Source: Bacteroidales bacterium
GTDB taxonomy: Bacteria; Bacteroidota; Bacteroidia; Bacteroidales; Muribaculaceae
Assembly: GCA_014800515.1 (NCBI GenBank)
Contig: JAAVFY010000007.1
Location: 1 to 42,853, forward strand
DNA length: 42,853 bases
Direction: 5' to 3'
Both the position numbers and the translations under genes were made by a program. Shown piece by piece: positions 7,212-42,853 of this stretch (the stretch's first letter is position 1; every line of letters starts with the position of its first letter). The notes beneath the pieces were generated by a model. The model had not been told where the DNA came from, made no database searches, and saw only the letters and a list, made by a program, of their open reading frames with translations.

Positions 7212-7415
7212 TAAGTAGCTAAGAACAATTAATAATATGATAGATGCGCGATAATTTTGAGTCAGGTTGGCTGCGGAGCGAAGGAGCTTGGCGAGCTAAG
7301 CGACTGAGTGACTGAGTGACAAGGTCAAGATGGCCAAAATTAGCCACATATATCATATTAAGATACTTTCAAAGCTATTGAGTTATTATATCGTTTAATT
7401 TTTCTTAGCTACTTA
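7212..7415 (+). repeat. MITE-like element, copy B (204 bp)
   Basis: A complete copy from TAAGTAGCTAAG to CTTAGCTACTTA. It is 8 bases longer than the 196-bp form because of a tandem GACTGAGT duplication. The left arm (TAATATGATAGATGCG) and right partner (CACATATATCATATTA) form the inner inverted repeat. The central hairpin GCTTGGC/GCTAAGC keeps pairing through a G-T. The left tip has one change (AGAACAATTAA). It occupies most of the gap upstream of the PH-domain gene, which would transcribe it in antisense. Confidence 0.92.
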
Positions 7416-20269: not shown

Positions 20270-20464
20270 TAAGTAGCTAAGAAAAATTAATAATATGATA
20301 GATGCGCGATAATTTTGAGTCAGGTTGATCGCGGAGGTAAGGAGCTTAGCGAGCTAAGCGACTGAGTGACAAGGACAAGATGGCCAGAATTAGCCGCATA
20401 TCTCATATCAAGATACTTTCAAAGCTATTGAGTTATTATAGCGTTTAATTTTTCTTAGTACTTA
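20270..20464 (+). repeat. MITE-like element, copy C (195 bp)
   Basis: A full copy from TAAGTAGCTAAG to CTTAGTACTTA. The right tip lacks one C relative to the others (CTTAGTAC instead of CTTAGCTAC) and several internal changes occur (GATCGCGGAGGTAAGG, CAGAATTAGCC), making it the most diverged copy. It sits between queD and queE inside an otherwise tight operon, in the orientation opposite to the genes. Confidence 0.92.
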
Positions 20465-35296: not shown

Positions 35297-35333
35297 CAAT
35301 GCGATTTAATTCTTGCCCGCGACAGACATCACG

Positions 35334-36101
35334 ATGAAATTCCCCTCGATACCCACCAAACACAAAGATATGCTGGCCGGCATAGGATTCATAGTCCTTG
35401 CCATCACATTGGCTTACACTTCGGTGTGGGCATATCGGGTATTCATCACCTCTCCCCCCTATGTCGATGAGGAGAAATATCCCATACGGGGGATTGACGT
35501 GAGCCGCCATAACGGACTGATGAATCTCGACGCCGCCGCCGACGACGGAGTGGAATTCATCTTTATAAAAGCGTCCGAGGGATGCGACTTCCGCGATGAA
35601 AACTTCCGCCTCAACTACCGCAAAGCACGCCATGCCGGACTGAAAATCGGTGCCTACCATTTCTTCCGGTTTGATAAGGACGGTGTGGAGCAGGCAAAAA
35701 ACCTTATACGCACCATCGGTTATCGCAAACTTGAACTCGGAGTCGTGATCGATGTGGAGCAACATGGCAACCCCGACAGCATCCCTGTGGAACTCGTCAC
35801 CGACCGCCTCACCCGAATGAAGGAATATCTCAACCTGAAAGGGCTGCGCGTCATGTTCTACACCAACCGCAACGGCTACTACGATTATTTGGCTGAGTGT
35901 TTTCCGGGGTCTCCCCTCTGGATCTGCTCTTTCTCTTCCACTCCCATAAATGCGGAATGGACCTTCTGGCAATACAACCATCGTGGCCATGTGGCAGGAA
36001 TCAAAGGAGATGTCGACCTGAATGCCTTCTGCGGTTCGCGTGAGGAATGGGAATCTTTCCTAAAAGGGGATGTCTGGCCATATAACGGCACCGGAGAGTG
36101 A
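35334..36101 (+). CDS. Membrane-anchored GH25 lysozyme (muramidase)
   Basis: A 255-residue protein with an N-terminal cytoplasmic stub, one membrane helix (about 17-36, IGFIVLAITLAYTSVWAY) and a periplasmic glycoside hydrolase family 25 domain. Catalytic-face motifs are GIDVSRHNG (about 55-63), FIKASEG, GAYHFFRF, and VIDVEQHG, the DxE pair (about 139-146). WQYNHRGHVAGIKGDVDLNAF closes the barrel. It likely cuts peptidoglycan in remodelling rather than as a toxin, since no immunity gene adjoins. It is transcribed alone, with element copy D downstream. Confidence 0.92.
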   Translation: MKFPSIPTKHKDMLAGIGFIVLAITLAYTSVWAYRVFITSPPYVDEEKYPIRGIDVSRHNGLMNLDAAADDGVEFIFIKASEGCDFRDENFRLNYRKARHAGLKIGAYHFFRFDKDGVEQAKNLIRTIGYRKLELGVVIDVEQHGNPDSIPVELVTDRLTRMKEYLNLKGLRVMFYTNRNGYYDYLAECFPGSPLWICSFSSTPINAEWTFWQYNHRGHVAGIKGDVDLNAFCGSREEWESFLKGDVWPYNGTGE

Positions 36102-36189: not shown

Positions 36190-36385
36190 TAAGTAGCTAA
36201 GAAAAATTAATAATATGATAGATGCGTGATAATTTTGAGTCAGGTTGGCCGCGGAGCGAAGGAGCTTAGCGGGCTAAACGACTGAGAGACAAGGTCAAGA
36301 TGACCGAAATTAGCCGCATATATCATATTAAGATACTTTCAAAGCTACTGAGTTATTATATCGTTTAATTTTTCTTAGCTACTTA
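36190..36385 (+). repeat. MITE-like element, copy D (196 bp)
   Basis: A full copy with perfect 21-base terminal inverted repeats (TAAGTAGCTAAGAAAAATTAA and complement). The inner arms and central hairpin region are present, though the hairpin carries two changes (GCTTAGCGGGCTAAAC). It fills much of the 333-base GH25-porU gap, 49 bases before the porU GTG. The rest of this gap (36102-36189 and 36386-36434) contains no other feature. Confidence 0.93.
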
Positions 36386-36434: not shown

Positions 36435-39400
36435 GTGAACCGATACCTGAACAATATACAGTCTCTTCTGCGCCGGGATTTCTCTCTCCGGGCGATAGTA
36501 TTGGCAGTCGTGGCGTGCATCACGCTCATGGCAGCCACGTCTGTGTTTGCCCTGCAGGAGTCCACATTCTCCGCCTCATCAAGAATGGCTTCGGGCAAAT
36601 GGGTGCGTGTACGCGTGGAGAACACAGGTATGTATCTCATCACCGATGCACAGCTGAAACAGATGGGATTCTCCGACCCCTCGAAAGTGAATGTCTACGG
36701 CTTCGGAGGGCGTATGCTTAGCGAGAATCTTACTGACGGGATGCCTGATGACCTCCCGGCAGCCCCCTCTATGCGTACATCTTCGGGTATCGTGTTCTTC
36801 GCTACGGATATCTTCCGTTGGAGCGGCAGTCCGCGTATGTCGCACACGATAAACGCCTATTCGCTCGACAGCTATTATTTTCTGAGCGACTGCCCCTCTC
36901 CGGAGAAGATGGAGAGTGAGAGCAGATTGCCTTCCGACACGCAGAACGCCACCATCTCCTTCATCCATTATCAGGTGCATGAGCAGGAACTCAACGCGCC
37001 CGCCGAGAACGGACGCGACATCATGGGCGAAGAGCTTAGAAGCGGCCAGTCGCGCAGTTTTTCATTCGCTACTCCCGACATGGCTTCTGATGAGGTGAGG
37101 GTGAACTTCACCTTTGCGGCCAATATCAAAGGAGGACAGTCTTCGGTGATTCTCTCGGCCAACGGAGTGCAACTCCCCTCCGGTGACACCGACAAACTTG
37201 ACGGCGTCACCTCCTCCGCAGGATTTCTGACACGTCGCACCACCTCCAAAACTTTCTCACACTCCTCCGACAAACTTGATCTCGGAGTTAAATACTCAGC
37301 CAGCGGCACTTTCTACGGCGCTTGGGTCGACCATATCGAGGTGTCCTACGAGCGAGAGCTTCGCTTGCGCGACGGTCAGCTTCATTTCTTCCTCAACCCT
37401 GTTGTCGAGACCAACGTGACTTTGGAGGGTGCTTCAGCCGCCACCAAGATATGGGATGTGACGGATGCCATGCGTCCTGTGCAGATAGATTTTGAGCTTT
37501 CGGGATCTACGGCTCGTTTCCATGCCACTTCCGGCCTGCGTGAATATGTGGCTTTCAATCCTGAAAGTATCAAGGACGCACCCTCGGATCCGGAAGAGAT
37601 GGACAACCAGAATCTCCACGCCATGGAGTCGGCGGAATTTGTGATTATCGCCCCGAAGGAATATTTCGATGAGGCCGAGCGTCTGGCAGAGATGCACCGC
37701 CGGGTGGACGGCATGAGCGTTCACGTGATTCTGCCCGAGAAATTCTACAACGAGTTCGCATCCGGCATGGCAGATCCCACAGCTTTCCGCAAGGCTTTCA
37801 AGATGTGGACTGACAGGAGCGAGAACGGTCAGGGCGACCGTCTGCGCTACGTATTGCTCTTCTCCCGTCCCACCTTCGACAATAAGATGATCACTCCGAC
37901 GGTGCGTCAGGCCGGCTATCCACGTATTCCGCAGTGGCAGTCGGAGGGTATCTTCTCCGATGAGACAGCCTACGGCACCGACGACTACATCGGCATGATG
38001 GAGGAGGGTGACAACTTCCGTATGTCAAAAGCCAAGGTTGACCTCGCCGTGGCCCGCTGGGCTGTGTCGAGCAACGAGGAGGCGCGCCAGATGGTCGACA
38101 AGACTATCCGCTATGTTGAAGAACCCGATTTCGGAGCATGGCGTAATTCGGTGCTTCTTATCTCTGACGACGGCGACAACAATATCCACATGCGTCAATC
38201 CGATCAGGCACGCGACAATATGATGAACTACGGCAACGGAGCAGACTTCATCTACGAACGTCTTTACACCGATGCCTTCGTCCGCAAGGCTTCCGGCACC
38301 GGTCTTAGCTATCCGGATGCACGCGAGCGTATGCAGAAGCGCCTTAGCGAAGGTGTGGGTCTGATTCAGTATGTGGGTCATGCCAATCCTCGCGCATGGA
38401 CTCATGAGAATCTCTTCGTCTGGAACGACATCACCTCAATGAGCAATACTCGTTTGCCCTATCTGACGGCCTATTGTTGCGAATTCATGCGGTGGGACGC
38501 CAACAGCGTCAGCGGTGGGGAGAAGATGTGGCTTCATCCGGAGAGCGGCGTCATCGGCATGTTCTGCGCCACCCGTTCAGTATTCATGGGTCCCAACGGC
38601 CGTCTTAGCACCGCCTTCGGCAAGGCTCTCTATCAGAAAGACACTGAGACGGGTCTGACAAAAAGAATCGGCGATGTGGCTGTGGAGGCTAAAAACAATG
38701 CTGACTCCTACGACGACAACAAACTTCGTTTCGCTCTCCTCGGCGACCCGGCTCTCAAAGTGTTGAGTCCGGATATGAAGGTGGTGCTCGACCGTCTTGG
38801 CGATGCCACCCCCTCAGCCGACTCCGAAGAGCTCCCCGAGCTTGGAGCCGGCGCCACGGTGAGTGTGGCCGGTTCGATTCTCGAGCCCGACGGCACACCC
38901 GCATCAGACTTCAACGGCATCATCGAGCTGTCGCTCTATGATGCAGAAACTCCCGTCACAACCAACGGATGGGACAGCGACGAATACAGCTATAATGAAC
39001 GCACCGCACGACTCGGCAACGTCAGGGCCCGTGTGAAGGACGGCAAATGGGAAGCTATGGTGCATGTCCCCATAGAAATAACCAACAACTATTCGCCGGC
39101 TCTGCTCAACTTCTACGCATACAGCGACGCAGGCCGCGAGGCCGGAGGTTCGTTCACTGATTTCTATGTCTACGGATATGACGACCGCACGGCTGACGAC
39201 ACTACCGGCCCCGAGATTTCCAGATTCGTACTCAACAGCGATCGTTTCACCAACGGGTCATCTGTCAGCACATCTCCTGTGGTATTGGCTGATTTTTCCG
39301 ATCCCTCCGGAATAAATGTCAGCGACACGGGTATCGGCCATAAGATGACTCTCACTCTTGACGGCAGAACCTATTTCGATGATATCAACCTCTACTTCTC

Positions 39401-39866
39401 CTCCGATCCGGACGATTCCTCGAAGGGCAGCATACTCTATCCCCTCTCCGATCTTGAACCCGGAGCGCACACGCTTGAACTCACCGTGTGGGACAATGCC
39501 GGCAACTCCTCAAGATCTACCATCGACTTCCAGGCTGCTGTAGGTGTGAATCCCACCATCTATGATGTGACCACGGACTGCAGTCCGGCCCGCACATCTG
39601 TGGTATTCACTGTGACTACCGATCGTGCGCTCTCCTCTCTGGGATGCGAGATGGAGGTGTTCGACCTCAGCGGACGCCGCGTCTGGAACACCAATGCCGA
39701 CGGATTCACCGACAGCCATAGCGATATCCGCATTGACTGGGATCTGCGCGACAACAGTGGCGTGCGTGTCGGCAGAGGCATCTACCTCTACAGGGCCACA
39801 ATCATCACTCCCGAGGGCACTCGCCAGACGCTTACGCGCAAGATGGCAGTGGCCGCTGCAGAATAA
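36435..39866 (+). CDS. porU: Type IX secretion C25 sortase, PorU-like
   Basis: Outer-membrane-associated gingipain-family (C25) peptidase expected to cleave C-terminal domains of type IX cargo and attach it to the surface. The 1143-residue protein starts at GTG; the next ATG would cut off the signal's basic region. A signal helix occupies about 18-38. The N-terminal domain opens SSRMASGKWVRVRVENTG. The C25 domain has QYVGHANPRAW with catalytic His (about 641-651) and TAYCCEFMRWD with catalytic Cys (about 676-686). The C-terminus has a T9SS-type CTD (EVFDLSGRRVWN...GIYLYRATI). Length is close to P. gingivalis PorU. rex begins 8 bases after the stop. Confidence 0.88.
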   Translation: MNRYLNNIQSLLRRDFSLRAIVLAVVACITLMAATSVFALQESTFSASSRMASGKWVRVRVENTGMYLITDAQLKQMGFSDPSKVNVYGFGGRMLSENLTDGMPDDLPAAPSMRTSSGIVFFATDIFRWSGSPRMSHTINAYSLDSYYFLSDCPSPEKMESESRLPSDTQNATISFIHYQVHEQELNAPAENGRDIMGEELRSGQSRSFSFATPDMASDEVRVNFTFAANIKGGQSSVILSANGVQLPSGDTDKLDGVTSSAGFLTRRTTSKTFSHSSDKLDLGVKYSASGTFYGAWVDHIEVSYERELRLRDGQLHFFLNPVVETNVTLEGASAATKIWDVTDAMRPVQIDFELSGSTARFHATSGLREYVAFNPESIKDAPSDPEEMDNQNLHAMESAEFVIIAPKEYFDEAERLAEMHRRVDGMSVHVILPEKFYNEFASGMADPTAFRKAFKMWTDRSENGQGDRLRYVLLFSRPTFDNKMITPTVRQAGYPRIPQWQSEGIFSDETAYGTDDYIGMMEEGDNFRMSKAKVDLAVARWAVSSNEEARQMVDKTIRYVEEPDFGAWRNSVLLISDDGDNNIHMRQSDQARDNMMNYGNGADFIYERLYTDAFVRKASGTGLSYPDARERMQKRLSEGVGLIQYVGHANPRAWTHENLFVWNDITSMSNTRLPYLTAYCCEFMRWDANSVSGGEKMWLHPESGVIGMFCATRSVFMGPNGRLSTAFGKALYQKDTETGLTKRIGDVAVEAKNNADSYDDNKLRFALLGDPALKVLSPDMKVVLDRLGDATPSADSEELPELGAGATVSVAGSILEPDGTPASDFNGIIELSLYDAETPVTTNGWDSDEYSYNERTARLGNVRARVKDGKWEAMVHVPIEITNNYSPALLNFYAYSDAGREAGGSFTDFYVYGYDDRTADDTTGPEISRFVLNSDRFTNGSSVSTSPVVLADFSDPSGINVSDTGIGHKMTLTLDGRTYFDDINLYFSSDPDDSSKGSILYPLSDLEPGAHTLELTVWDNAGNSSRSTIDFQAAVGVNPTIYDVTTDCSPARTSVVFTVTTDRALSSLGCEMEVFDLSGRRVWNTNADGFTDSHSDIRIDWDLRDNSGVRVGRGIYLYRATIITPEGTRQTLTRKMAVAAAE

Positions 39867-39874
39867 TATTCAAG

Positions 39875-40543
39875 ATGAACAATCATAAAATCGAACTTCA
39901 GGTGCCGGTGCAGACTGGAATTATTCTGCCTGAGCCTACGCTGCGGCGTCTGCCGTGGTATCTTGCCTATATAGACATACTGTATGCGCAAGGTACCGGC
40001 CACGTGAGTTCCACTCAGATATCCCGCGCCCTCAACGTAGATGCATCTCAGATAGCTAAGGATCTCTCCTTTCTTTCGATAAAAGGGAAAACCCGTATCG
40101 GATATGACGTGGCGCAGCTGCGTGACATTCTTGCCGACTTCCTCGGATTCCGCGTGAGCCATAAGGCTCTCGTCATCGGAGCCGGGAGTCTGGGACGGGC
40201 TTTGATGTGCGACACCGGTCTCTCCACCTACGGGCTTGACATAGCAGCGGCTCTCGACATAGACACCGCGCTTGTCGGCACGGAGGTAAACGGACGGCCG
40301 ATATGCCACATCGACGATATCGAGGAAGTGGCACAGACCACCGGAGCTGTCATAGCAATCCTGACGGTGCCTTTCGAAGTGGCTCAGGAGGCGGCAGACA
40401 TCGCTATCTCCGCCGGCATTAGAGCCATCTGGAATTTCACTCCCTATCGCGTCAAGACCGCCGAGGGAATAGTAATGGCCAATACCTCCATATATGCTCA
40501 TCTTGCAATGATTTACAACAGGCTTGAAAATCTCAATCGTTAA
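39875..40543 (+). CDS. rex: Redox-sensing transcriptional repressor Rex
   Basis: NADH/NAD-responsive repressor that adjusts fermentation genes. The 222-residue protein has an N-terminal winged-helix (RLPWYLAYIDILYAQGTGHVSSTQISRALNVDASQIAKDL is the region at about 23-62) and a C-terminal Rossmann domain with VIGAGSLGRAL (about 101-111). The swapped helix occupies the C-terminus. All elements are present. It sits between porU and the FAA-like gene in one unit. No Rex operator was recognised with confidence near pta or here. Confidence 0.95.
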   Translation: MNNHKIELQVPVQTGIILPEPTLRRLPWYLAYIDILYAQGTGHVSSTQISRALNVDASQIAKDLSFLSIKGKTRIGYDVAQLRDILADFLGFRVSHKALVIGAGSLGRALMCDTGLSTYGLDIAAALDIDTALVGTEVNGRPICHIDDIEEVAQTTGAVIAILTVPFEVAQEAADIAISAGIRAIWNFTPYRVKTAEGIVMANTSIYAHLAMIYNRLENLNR

Positions 40544-40592
40544 CATATCCTTTCCCGCCCCTCTTCACTCCCTGAAAGGTGAGAATTCTTAA

Positions 40593-41216
40593 GTGATGAA
40601 AGCAATAGCAGTAGTCAACAATCATCGACTCTCCCCCGATAGCAAGACGGAGAGCAGCCATATCTCTCCCTCTCTGATTGATATTCCCGATTCATGCCTG
40701 ATACGCAGCGGGAAACCATTCTTCATTCCGGAGTTCGACTCTGACTTTCGGGCATACCCCTCGATTGCAGTGAGAATTAACAGACTCGGAAAGTGTATCG
40801 CGCCTGTTTTCGCTCCCCGTTATTGGGGTGAACTGACAGGAGCGGTCAGCATACGGGGTGAGCAGACTCTGGGCAGGCTCAGGGCAAACGGACTGCCATG
40901 GTCGGAAGCTCTTGTGTTCGACCGTTCGCTGATAGTGGGCGATCTCGTCGGCAAGGATTCGCTCCCGGAGCAGTTCAGCTTACTGACCGTATGCGGCGAT
41001 AAGACTATCTCAATATCGGAGATTGATTTGGCAGAGTCGATCGACATGACAATTTCTCGTGTGAGCCGGCATAACACTGTGCGTCAGGGCGACTTCATTC
41101 TCGTCGGGCTCGCTCCCGAGGGTATTCCCCTCTCCGCCCCTTCGCGTCTCACCATGTCTCTCGTCGATAAAGAGGGGAAAGAGATTATGCCATTGCTCTC
41201 CAACAATATCAGATAA
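40593..41216 (+). CDS. Divergent fumarylacetoacetate-hydrolase-like protein, probably catalytically changed
   Basis: A 207-residue protein that aligns by eye with the short FAA-hydrolase proteins of Bacteroidales: DSCLIRSGKPFFIPEF, VRINRLGKCIAPVFAPRYW, RANGLPWSEALVFD, and ISRVSRHNTVRQGDFILVGLAPEGI near the end. The positions where FAA enzymes have metal ligands (the ExE pair before VRI, and the Asp of DFTARDLQ) read YPSIAVRI and AVSIRGEQTLG, so the ligands seem lost. It may be a non-catalytic paralogue or a different activity. Its TAA stop is the first three bases of element copy E. It follows rex by 49 bases. Confidence 0.7.
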   Translation: MMKAIAVVNNHRLSPDSKTESSHISPSLIDIPDSCLIRSGKPFFIPEFDSDFRAYPSIAVRINRLGKCIAPVFAPRYWGELTGAVSIRGEQTLGRLRANGLPWSEALVFDRSLIVGDLVGKDSLPEQFSLLTVCGDKTISISEIDLAESIDMTISRVSRHNTVRQGDFILVGLAPEGIPLSAPSRLTMSLVDKEGKEIMPLLSNNIR

Positions 41217-41409
41217 GTAGCTAAGAAAAATTAATAATATGATAGATGCGCGATAATTTTGAGTCAGGTTGGCCGCGGAGCGAAGGAGCTTAGCGAGCTA
41301 ATTGACTGAGTGACAAGGTCAAGATGGCCAAAATTAGCCGCATATATCATGTTAAGATATTTTCAAAGCCACTTAGTTATTGTATCGTTTAATTTTTCTT
41401 AGCTACTTA
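41214..41409 (+). repeat. MITE-like element, copy E (196 bp)
   Basis: A full copy with perfect 21-base terminal inverted repeats. A few internal changes are visible (GAGCTAATTGACTGAG, TCATGTTAAGATATTTTC, GCCACTTAGTTATTG). Its first bases TAA are the stop codon of the FAA-like gene. The remaining 77 bases to the next ATG hold no clear promoter. Confidence 0.93.
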
Positions 41410-41486
41410 AGTCGCCAAGCTGCTGCTTAATCCCAATATCCTTGACATTCACGTGGCCCGGCCACACTCCCCCATTTTCCATTGAC

Positions 41487-42853
41487 ATGAAACAATCCCT
41501 CTTCTTTCCCCTCGCTGTCGCTCTCGCACTTCCCATAGCGGGTTTCGCCACCCCTACTGCCACCGGCTTCTTTGCACCCTCCTCACGTCTTGCCTCGGGA
41601 AAATGGGTGAAGATAGGTGTGGACACCAATGGCATATATGAGATTTCTTACTCGCGACTGAAAGAGATGGGATTCTCAGACCCTACACGTGTCGGAGTGC
41701 TGGGAAGAGGCGGACATCAGATGGAGACGGATTTCACGGATGAAAACGGCGAACGTCTGAATGCCGACGACCTCTCGCCGGTGGCTGTGCTTCATCTCAA
41801 CGGACGCATCTACTTCTACGGACAGGGCACCGAGAACTTCAAATTTCTTCTTAACAGCAAGCTTGACACGCAGGGTTATTATCAGAGGGTATCAAAAAAC
41901 CTTTATACCGACCTCGGCTATTACTTTCTGTCGGATTCAGATGGGGCTCGTGTGGATATGACCGTGCCCGAACCCGACAAGAGACGCCGCCGCCCCTCAA
42001 CCGGCGTCAGCTACGTCAGCCATGAAGTGGACCTCGCGCAAAACACTACCCACTCCGGTCAGCTATTCTGGGGAGAATCTTTCAACAATGGCAACCCCTC
42101 CCGTCAGGAGTGGAGCTTCGACATTCCCGATGTCGACATCGATGTGAAGGCTTTGATGGAGTGTTACTTCTACACCGAACGACTCGCCACCGGTACGCTC
42201 AAATGGGGCGTCGACGGTTCTTCCGATCTACGAAGCGGCAACACACGCATCTATAATTCCGTGAAATTCCGACCCCAGGAACCACTCACCCACACCACTG
42301 ACATCTATTCTGAGAAATTCAAGGTGTTCATAGACTATAATTCGCCTGACAATCCCGATGGAATTGCCAATCTCGACTACTGGACACTGACCTACGGCAC
42401 ACTCGTGCCCTCACTCCGCACCTCCGTTGGCACGCATCTCGCTCAGCAGCACGTCGGCTATCCCGGCCTTGGCCGTCAGGGAGAGATAGATATGAGCGCG
42501 ACACCCGCCGGGGTGGTCTTCAACGTCTCTGATCCGGCGAATCCTCAATTCTCCGAAACATTTCTCAATGACAACGGCACTCCTATCGCCGTTGTGACCC
42601 CCGGCATCGGATCCACAACCGAACTATATATCGCAGACCTCTCCCTGCCGCAACTGCAGATCAAAGGTTACGGCACAGGACAACGTATAGAGAATCAAGA
42701 CCTCCACGCGCAGGCTGCAGCCGGGGCTTCGCTGCTCATCATCTGCGTACCCTCGCAGATTGCTCAGGCCCAACGGCTTGCACAGCTCCATCGTCAATAT
42801 GACGGCATCAATGTGATGGTGGCCACAACAGATCAGGTTTACAACGAGTTCTC
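41487..42853 (+). CDS. Second PorU-like C25 peptidase-family protein (partial, runs off window)
   Basis: Not in the ORF track because no stop is reached: the frame is open from ATG 41487 to the window end (455 residues so far). The signal peptide is MKQSLFFPLAVALALPIAGFA. The mature N-terminus FFAPSSRLASGKWVKIGVDTNGIYEISYSRLKEMGFSDPTRV parallels porU upstream. The last visible part (LLIICVPSQIAQAQRLAQLHRQYDGINVMV...VYNEF) matches the start of the C25 region of porU. The catalytic His and Cys lie beyond the window. It is a tandem paralogue; which of the two is the main sortase cannot be decided. Confidence 0.9.
   Translation, partial: MKQSLFFPLAVALALPIAGFATPTATGFFAPSSRLASGKWVKIGVDTNGIYEISYSRLKEMGFSDPTRVGVLGRGGHQMETDFTDENGERLNADDLSPVAVLHLNGRIYFYGQGTENFKFLLNSKLDTQGYYQRVSKNLYTDLGYYFLSDSDGARVDMTVPEPDKRRRRPSTGVSYVSHEVDLAQNTTHSGQLFWGESFNNGNPSRQEWSFDIPDVDIDVKALMECYFYTERLATGTLKWGVDGSSDLRSGNTRIYNSVKFRPQEPLTHTTDIYSEKFKVFIDYNSPDNPDGIANLDYWTLTYGTLVPSLRTSVGTHLAQQHVGYPGLGRQGEIDMSATPAGVVFNVSDPANPQFSETFLNDNGTPIAVVTPGIGSTTELYIADLSLPQLQIKGYGTGQRIENQDLHAQAAAGASLLIICVPSQIAQAQRLAQLHRQYDGINVMVATTDQVYNEF

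Follow-up and report, generated by a model that had tools for sequence, protein, structure and literature searches.

The window analyzed here, i.e., the whole stretch of 42,853 nucleotides (contig C7:1-42853), belongs to a 1.99-Mb genome assembly that is 81% complete. The features relevant for this study lie at its 3′ end, the last of them continuing on the same contig:

35313..36101, + strand: GH25 lysozyme-like gene (Pfam PF01183, E = 3.1e-33), conserved upstream of porU1 in the genus according to synteny
36190..36385, strand not given: copy of the 196-bp repeat listed below, upstream of porU1
36435..39866, + strand: porU1 (gene 1), by its sequence the canonical type IX secretion sortase PorU, with a C25 domain at approximately residues 402–776, His649/Cys682 and a C-terminal domain
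39875..40543, + strand: rex, redox-sensing repressor (Pfam CoA_binding and Put_DNA-bind_N), a conserved neighbor according to synteny
40593..41216, + strand: FAAH-like ORF (Pfam FAA_hydrolase, E = 0.0055, below the cut-off), conserved between rex and porU2 or porV according to synteny
41214..41409, strand not given: 196-bp repeat with perfect 21-bp terminal inverted repeats, upstream of porU2
41487..42853, continuing to C7:44855, + strand: porU2 (gene 2), 5′ part of a predicted 1122-residue PorU paralogue, followed by porV and ispF

A previous sequence-only reading of this DNA had proposed that two PorU-type C25 genes share one locus, and the matches to Pfam, NCBIfam and the PorU crystal structure sequence 6ZA2 described below bear this out. 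Two features were absent from that account, namely, that rex and the FAAH-like ORF, whose label rests on a weak Pfam match below the cut-off, separate porU1 from porU2, and that porV adjoins gene 2 and not gene 1. In particular, porV (C7:44883-46112; 474 bits to the PorV model) starts 27 bases downstream of gene 2 and is followed by ispF. Further downstream, two large ORFs (C7:47720-51999) were found, one of which weakly matches leucine-rich-repeat adhesin and gliding-surface models, with no NCBIfam match for the other; both are possible type IX cargo.

The repeat found upstream of each porU gene is a MITE-like element of approximately 200 bp, with further copies within the window at 7213-7414 and 20270-20460, one end near 98, and two ends in another locus of the genome (L129; 625 and 4291). 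Three aligned copies were approximately 93% identical, exact-end matches were confined to loci of the same genome among the loci searched, and no Rfam match was obtained.

PorU is the reference Gram-negative sortase and is usually described as one enzyme per cell, which cleaves C-terminal domains (CTDs) from cargo and attaches the cargo to LPS by transpeptidation, while its own C-terminal domain remains uncleaved and docks on PorV. Gene 1 is an open and complete ORF of 1143 residues, whose C25 domain matched PF01364 with an E value of 1.4e-77. Its score against the NCBIfam PorU model (NF033707) was 894 bits, well over the cut-off of 420, and its match to 6ZA2 was nearly full length (E = 2e-153). 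By these sequence measures, gene 1 is the canonical PorU of this genome.

Gene 2 is likewise open and complete, extending from the ATG at 41487 to C7:44855 (1122 residues), although some of its codons are read as X because of single N's in the assembly within the part beyond the window. In agreement with the sequence-only reading, it has a signal-peptide-like N-terminus of its own (MKQSLFFPLAVALALPIAGFATP), the domain order of PorU, and all three motifs quoted for it, the counterparts of which in gene 1 are SSRMASGKWVRV, MGFSDP and RLAEMHRRVDG. The C25 domain was located at residues 417–778 (PF01364, E = 1e-55), accompanied by Ig-like regions, and the sequence beyond position 42853 contained both the catalytic His and Cys, which aligned to those of 6ZA2, and a C-terminal domain, whose terminal part matched that of the PorZ model (E = 8.9e-5). 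The match to 6ZA2 was again nearly full length (E = 2e-52), which, together with that of gene 1, excludes a chance likeness, and the phmmer match to PorU spanned residues 25–1111, i.e., the full PorU architecture of N-terminal beta domains, C25 domain, Ig-like region and C-terminal domain. Gene 2 thus resembles the Porphyromonas gingivalis protein (6ZA2; NF033707) in length, domain order, C25 domain, His/Cys dyad and C-terminal domain, and also in its slot beside porV and ispF, as in related Bacteroidales. It differs from PorU in the residues beside the catalytic Cys, in occurring as a second copy alongside a conserved PorU, and in its score against NF033707, which at 398.3 bits fell just under the cut-off (388–728 bits for its relatives, hereafter U2). 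Identity to gene 1 was only approximately 26%. With regard to peptidase family C25 more broadly, gene 2 shares the catalytic domain and dyad with gingipains, but differs from them in its N-terminal region and overall architecture, and a search of PDB sequences with E values up to 1 retrieved PorU only, with no gingipain match. The NCBI score threshold was the only sequence test by which gene 2 did not resemble a PorU, and a divergent second PorU lineage is the most fitting description of it.

Two other assignments were considered and rejected. NCBIfam holds a family described as a putative type IX secretion system sortase PorU2 (NF052324), i.e., a PorU-related second sortase; gene 2 scored far less against it than against PorU (94.4 bits versus a cut-off of 450; 78–133 bits for the U2 relatives tested) and is not a member. 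A pseudogene was considered since an internal stop was listed in the hits of some relatives; in the case examined closely (G225), the hit simply overruns the terminal stop of the ORF itself. Moreover, the reading frames of the U2 genes used were intact, and a dN/dS of approximately 0.1 was obtained.

The genome also encodes the setting in which a PorU would work. Sov/SprA (613 bits) and PorZ (346 bits) were found in addition to PorV, together with 15 type A sorting-domain hits. In P. gingivalis, the attachment complex comprises PorU, PorV, PorQ and PorZ, and the C690A mutant was used with respect to the catalytic Cys690 of PorU (PMC5562754). In that species, PorZ presents A-LPS to PorU, and no cross-species PorU-PorZ binding was seen between P. 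gingivalis and Tannerella forsythia (PMC8545088). Elsewhere in the genome, a third C25 gene of 813 residues (contig C45; L005:1365-3806) lies downstream of a gene whose product carries a type A sorting domain; because it scored only 24 bits to PorU, it represents a separate type of C25 protease.

The sequence-only reading had regarded a second PorU as exceptional, which does not hold for this family: at least two copies (2–4) were present in 40 of 50 sampled other Muribaculaceae genomes, and the remaining 10 carried U1 only. These pairs are therefore not universal, and no paper on a second PorU lineage or its role was found among open-licence papers; the novelty of the lineage is provisional, since the literature search covered that set only. 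Every Muribaculaceae genome classified had exactly one U1-type copy, so that the copy-number variation resides in U2, which ranged from 0 to 3 copies, with up to three in tandem (L094, L098). In U2-less loci (L091-L093, most of L171-L180, L195, L196), the FAAH-like gene directly adjoins porV, and hence the absence of U2 from these loci is not an assembly gap.

Comparison of gene order indicates where each copy sits. A single porU occurs in the order rex-FAAH-porU-porV-ispF, the ancestral locus, in records of Parabacteroides, Paludibacter and Coprobacter, and the order rex-FAAH-porU is seen in T. forsythia. The Muribaculaceae order is (GH25)-porU1-rex-FAAH-porU2-porV-ispF, and that of Barnesiella is porU-rex-FAAH-porU-porV-ispF (L237, L242). 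U1, the copy upstream of rex, stays PorU-like, while U2 occupies the old porU slot and adjoins porV in most full loci. Position and sequence thus disagree, and a synteny-based annotation would give the name porU to the wrong gene, since the ancestral slot next to porV is occupied by the divergent paralogue. Other porU duplications were seen outside the U1/U2 lineage, i.e., porU-porV-porU-ispF in Dysgonomonas sp. 216 (L253) and two separate porU loci in Parabacteroides goldsteinii (L239, L244). A direct porU tandem before porV was also seen in genome G129 (L115).

The phylogeny that had been suggested as a check separated the two types clearly. A rooted tree of 41 proteins placed the 11 U1 sequences from Muribaculaceae in one clade and the 11 U2 sequences from this family in another, each with 100% SH-aLRT support; the Muribaculaceae U2 clade joined Barnesiella U2 at 83%, and single-copy proteins of Tannerellaceae and Coprobacter branched outside. 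A 72-protein tree split U1 and other Bacteroidales PorU from U2 at 100%. These trees rule out a recent tandem duplication. U2 forms a long-branched clade of its own and evolves faster than U1. The rooted tree and the shared gene order therefore support one old duplication, dating back to an ancestor that Muribaculaceae probably shared with Barnesiella, the weakest point of this history being the 83% node, which joins long branches.

The His and Cys aligning with the P. gingivalis dyad were kept in 73/73 U2 and 89/89 U1 sequences, and dN/dS was approximately 0.1 for both types in two close pairs, with synonymous sites near saturation in one of them, pointing to purifying selection. The environment of the Cys differed, being mostly T-C-[ED]-F in U1 (T and F each in 82 of 89) and mostly G/T/C/A-C-x-L/V/A/I in U2. 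A structure predicted for the U2 of a named relative (L197), using an alignment of eight sequences and with a mean pLDDT of 75, matched 6ZA2 over the whole chain (1225 alignment columns, E = 3.6e-59, 20% identity), with domain orientation unreliable because the TM-score was only approximately 0.5. These features suggest that PorU2 is catalytically competent.

The sequence-only reading had offered a cargo-specific sortase or a surface protease as roles for the second gene, and the former is plausible and accounts best for the data. In this explanation, to which we give slightly better than even chances and which the lack of cross-species PorU-PorZ binding noted above also favors, PorU2 would be active as a second sortase whose cargo and/or acceptor specificity differs from that of PorU1, sometimes with a PorZ of its own. 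It would be exported by the type IX system, its C-terminal domain would dock on the outer-membrane shuttle PorV encoded alongside, and its Cys would cleave C-terminal signals from some of the cargo proteins, which PorU2 would then transfer to a surface acceptor. U1 would stay the housekeeping sortase. U2 would have come to recognize different substrates, acceptors or both, and a duplicated PorZ may be its partner in some lineages.

With regard to this last step, a second PorZ was seen only in U2-bearing genomes (40 of 79 with U2 versus 0 of 27 without), although the absence of PorZ2 from draft genomes is less certain than that of U2. Using profiles built for this analysis, it occurred in 28/39 U2 bearers and 0/17 U2-less genomes of the genus, and in 12/40 and 0/10, respectively, of the family sample. 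The other 28 of the 40 U2-bearing genomes of the family sample had one PorZ, and since single-PorZ genomes are numerous among U2 bearers, U2 needs no PorZ of its own. On an 86-genome U1 tree with 12 changes each in U2 and PorZ2, 3.6 independent pairs were concordant and none discordant (median p = 0.125); the association, while without exceptions, is thus not significant after correction for relatedness and is suggestive, and the plain Fisher test (genus p = 4e-7) overstates it. Homology of the second PorZ-like proteins to PorZ (NF052228) extends over most of their length, but in the genus they form a separate clade (99% SH-aLRT), and the own-genome copy (898 residues; contig C31, L127:6225-8921) scored 138 bits, below the cut-off of 260. 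Its homologues were found only in genomes also carrying porU2. A tandem PorZ pair in two genomes (G281/G339) represents a separate duplication.

The PorZ distribution also bears on a rather unlikely alternative, in which PorU2 is a signal peptidase only, hydrolyzing CTDs off some cargo and releasing it instead of attaching it. The changed residues adjacent to the Cys beside a kept dyad, and the single PorZ of most U2 bearers outside the genus, would agree with such an activity, but the full PorU architecture has been retained and PorZ copies occur only with U2, which points to acceptor delivery.

Less probable still is a mainly regulatory or structural role, in which PorU2 would form heterodimers with PorU1 and control the latency of the latter. 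P. gingivalis PorU was crystallized as a latent dimer (6ZA2 title) and U2 shares its locus with U1 and porV, both of which would suit this role; a non-catalytic protein, however, would not be expected to keep the His and Cys in all 73 sequences, and many genomes have U1 without U2.

Redundancy, i.e., extra dosage of the same activity, we consider improbable to a marginally greater degree. The variation in U2 copy number would be compatible with it, as would the higher cargo density per Mb in the U2 bearers of the genus (p = 0.003, without correction for relatedness). However, the type A sorting-domain counts themselves did not differ with or without U2 (medians of 13 and 10, p = 0.35), which also leads us to reject a larger cargo repertoire as the driver behind U2, and both the low identity between U2 and U1 in this genome and the long-branched clade of U2 run counter to a shared activity.

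Finally, a gingipain-like surface protease acting on environmental substrates, to which the C25 domain and signal peptide would conform, is highly improbable, because the PorU architecture of gene 2 is complete and its matches among PDB sequences are to PorU only, and, furthermore, U2 adjoins porV, gingipain covers only part of the predicted U2 chain (L197) in the fold search, and a different C25 gene is present at contig C45.

An active second sortase being the preferred reading, PorU2 probably handles other proteins or another anchor. Tentatively, and with more doubt than for the preferred reading, some Muribaculaceae might run at least two parallel surface-attachment complexes on one type IX translocon, in which PorZ1 would be paired with PorU1, and PorZ2 with PorU2, of which there are sometimes several. 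These complexes would serve different cargo sets or use different surface glycans as anchors. The confinement of PorZ duplications to U2 bearers leads to a testable prediction of cognate PorU-PorZ pairs. An old second PorU lineage that has conserved its dyad in a major gut family would constitute a natural experiment on the evolution of sortase specificity, with regard to both the CTD and the glycan acceptor.
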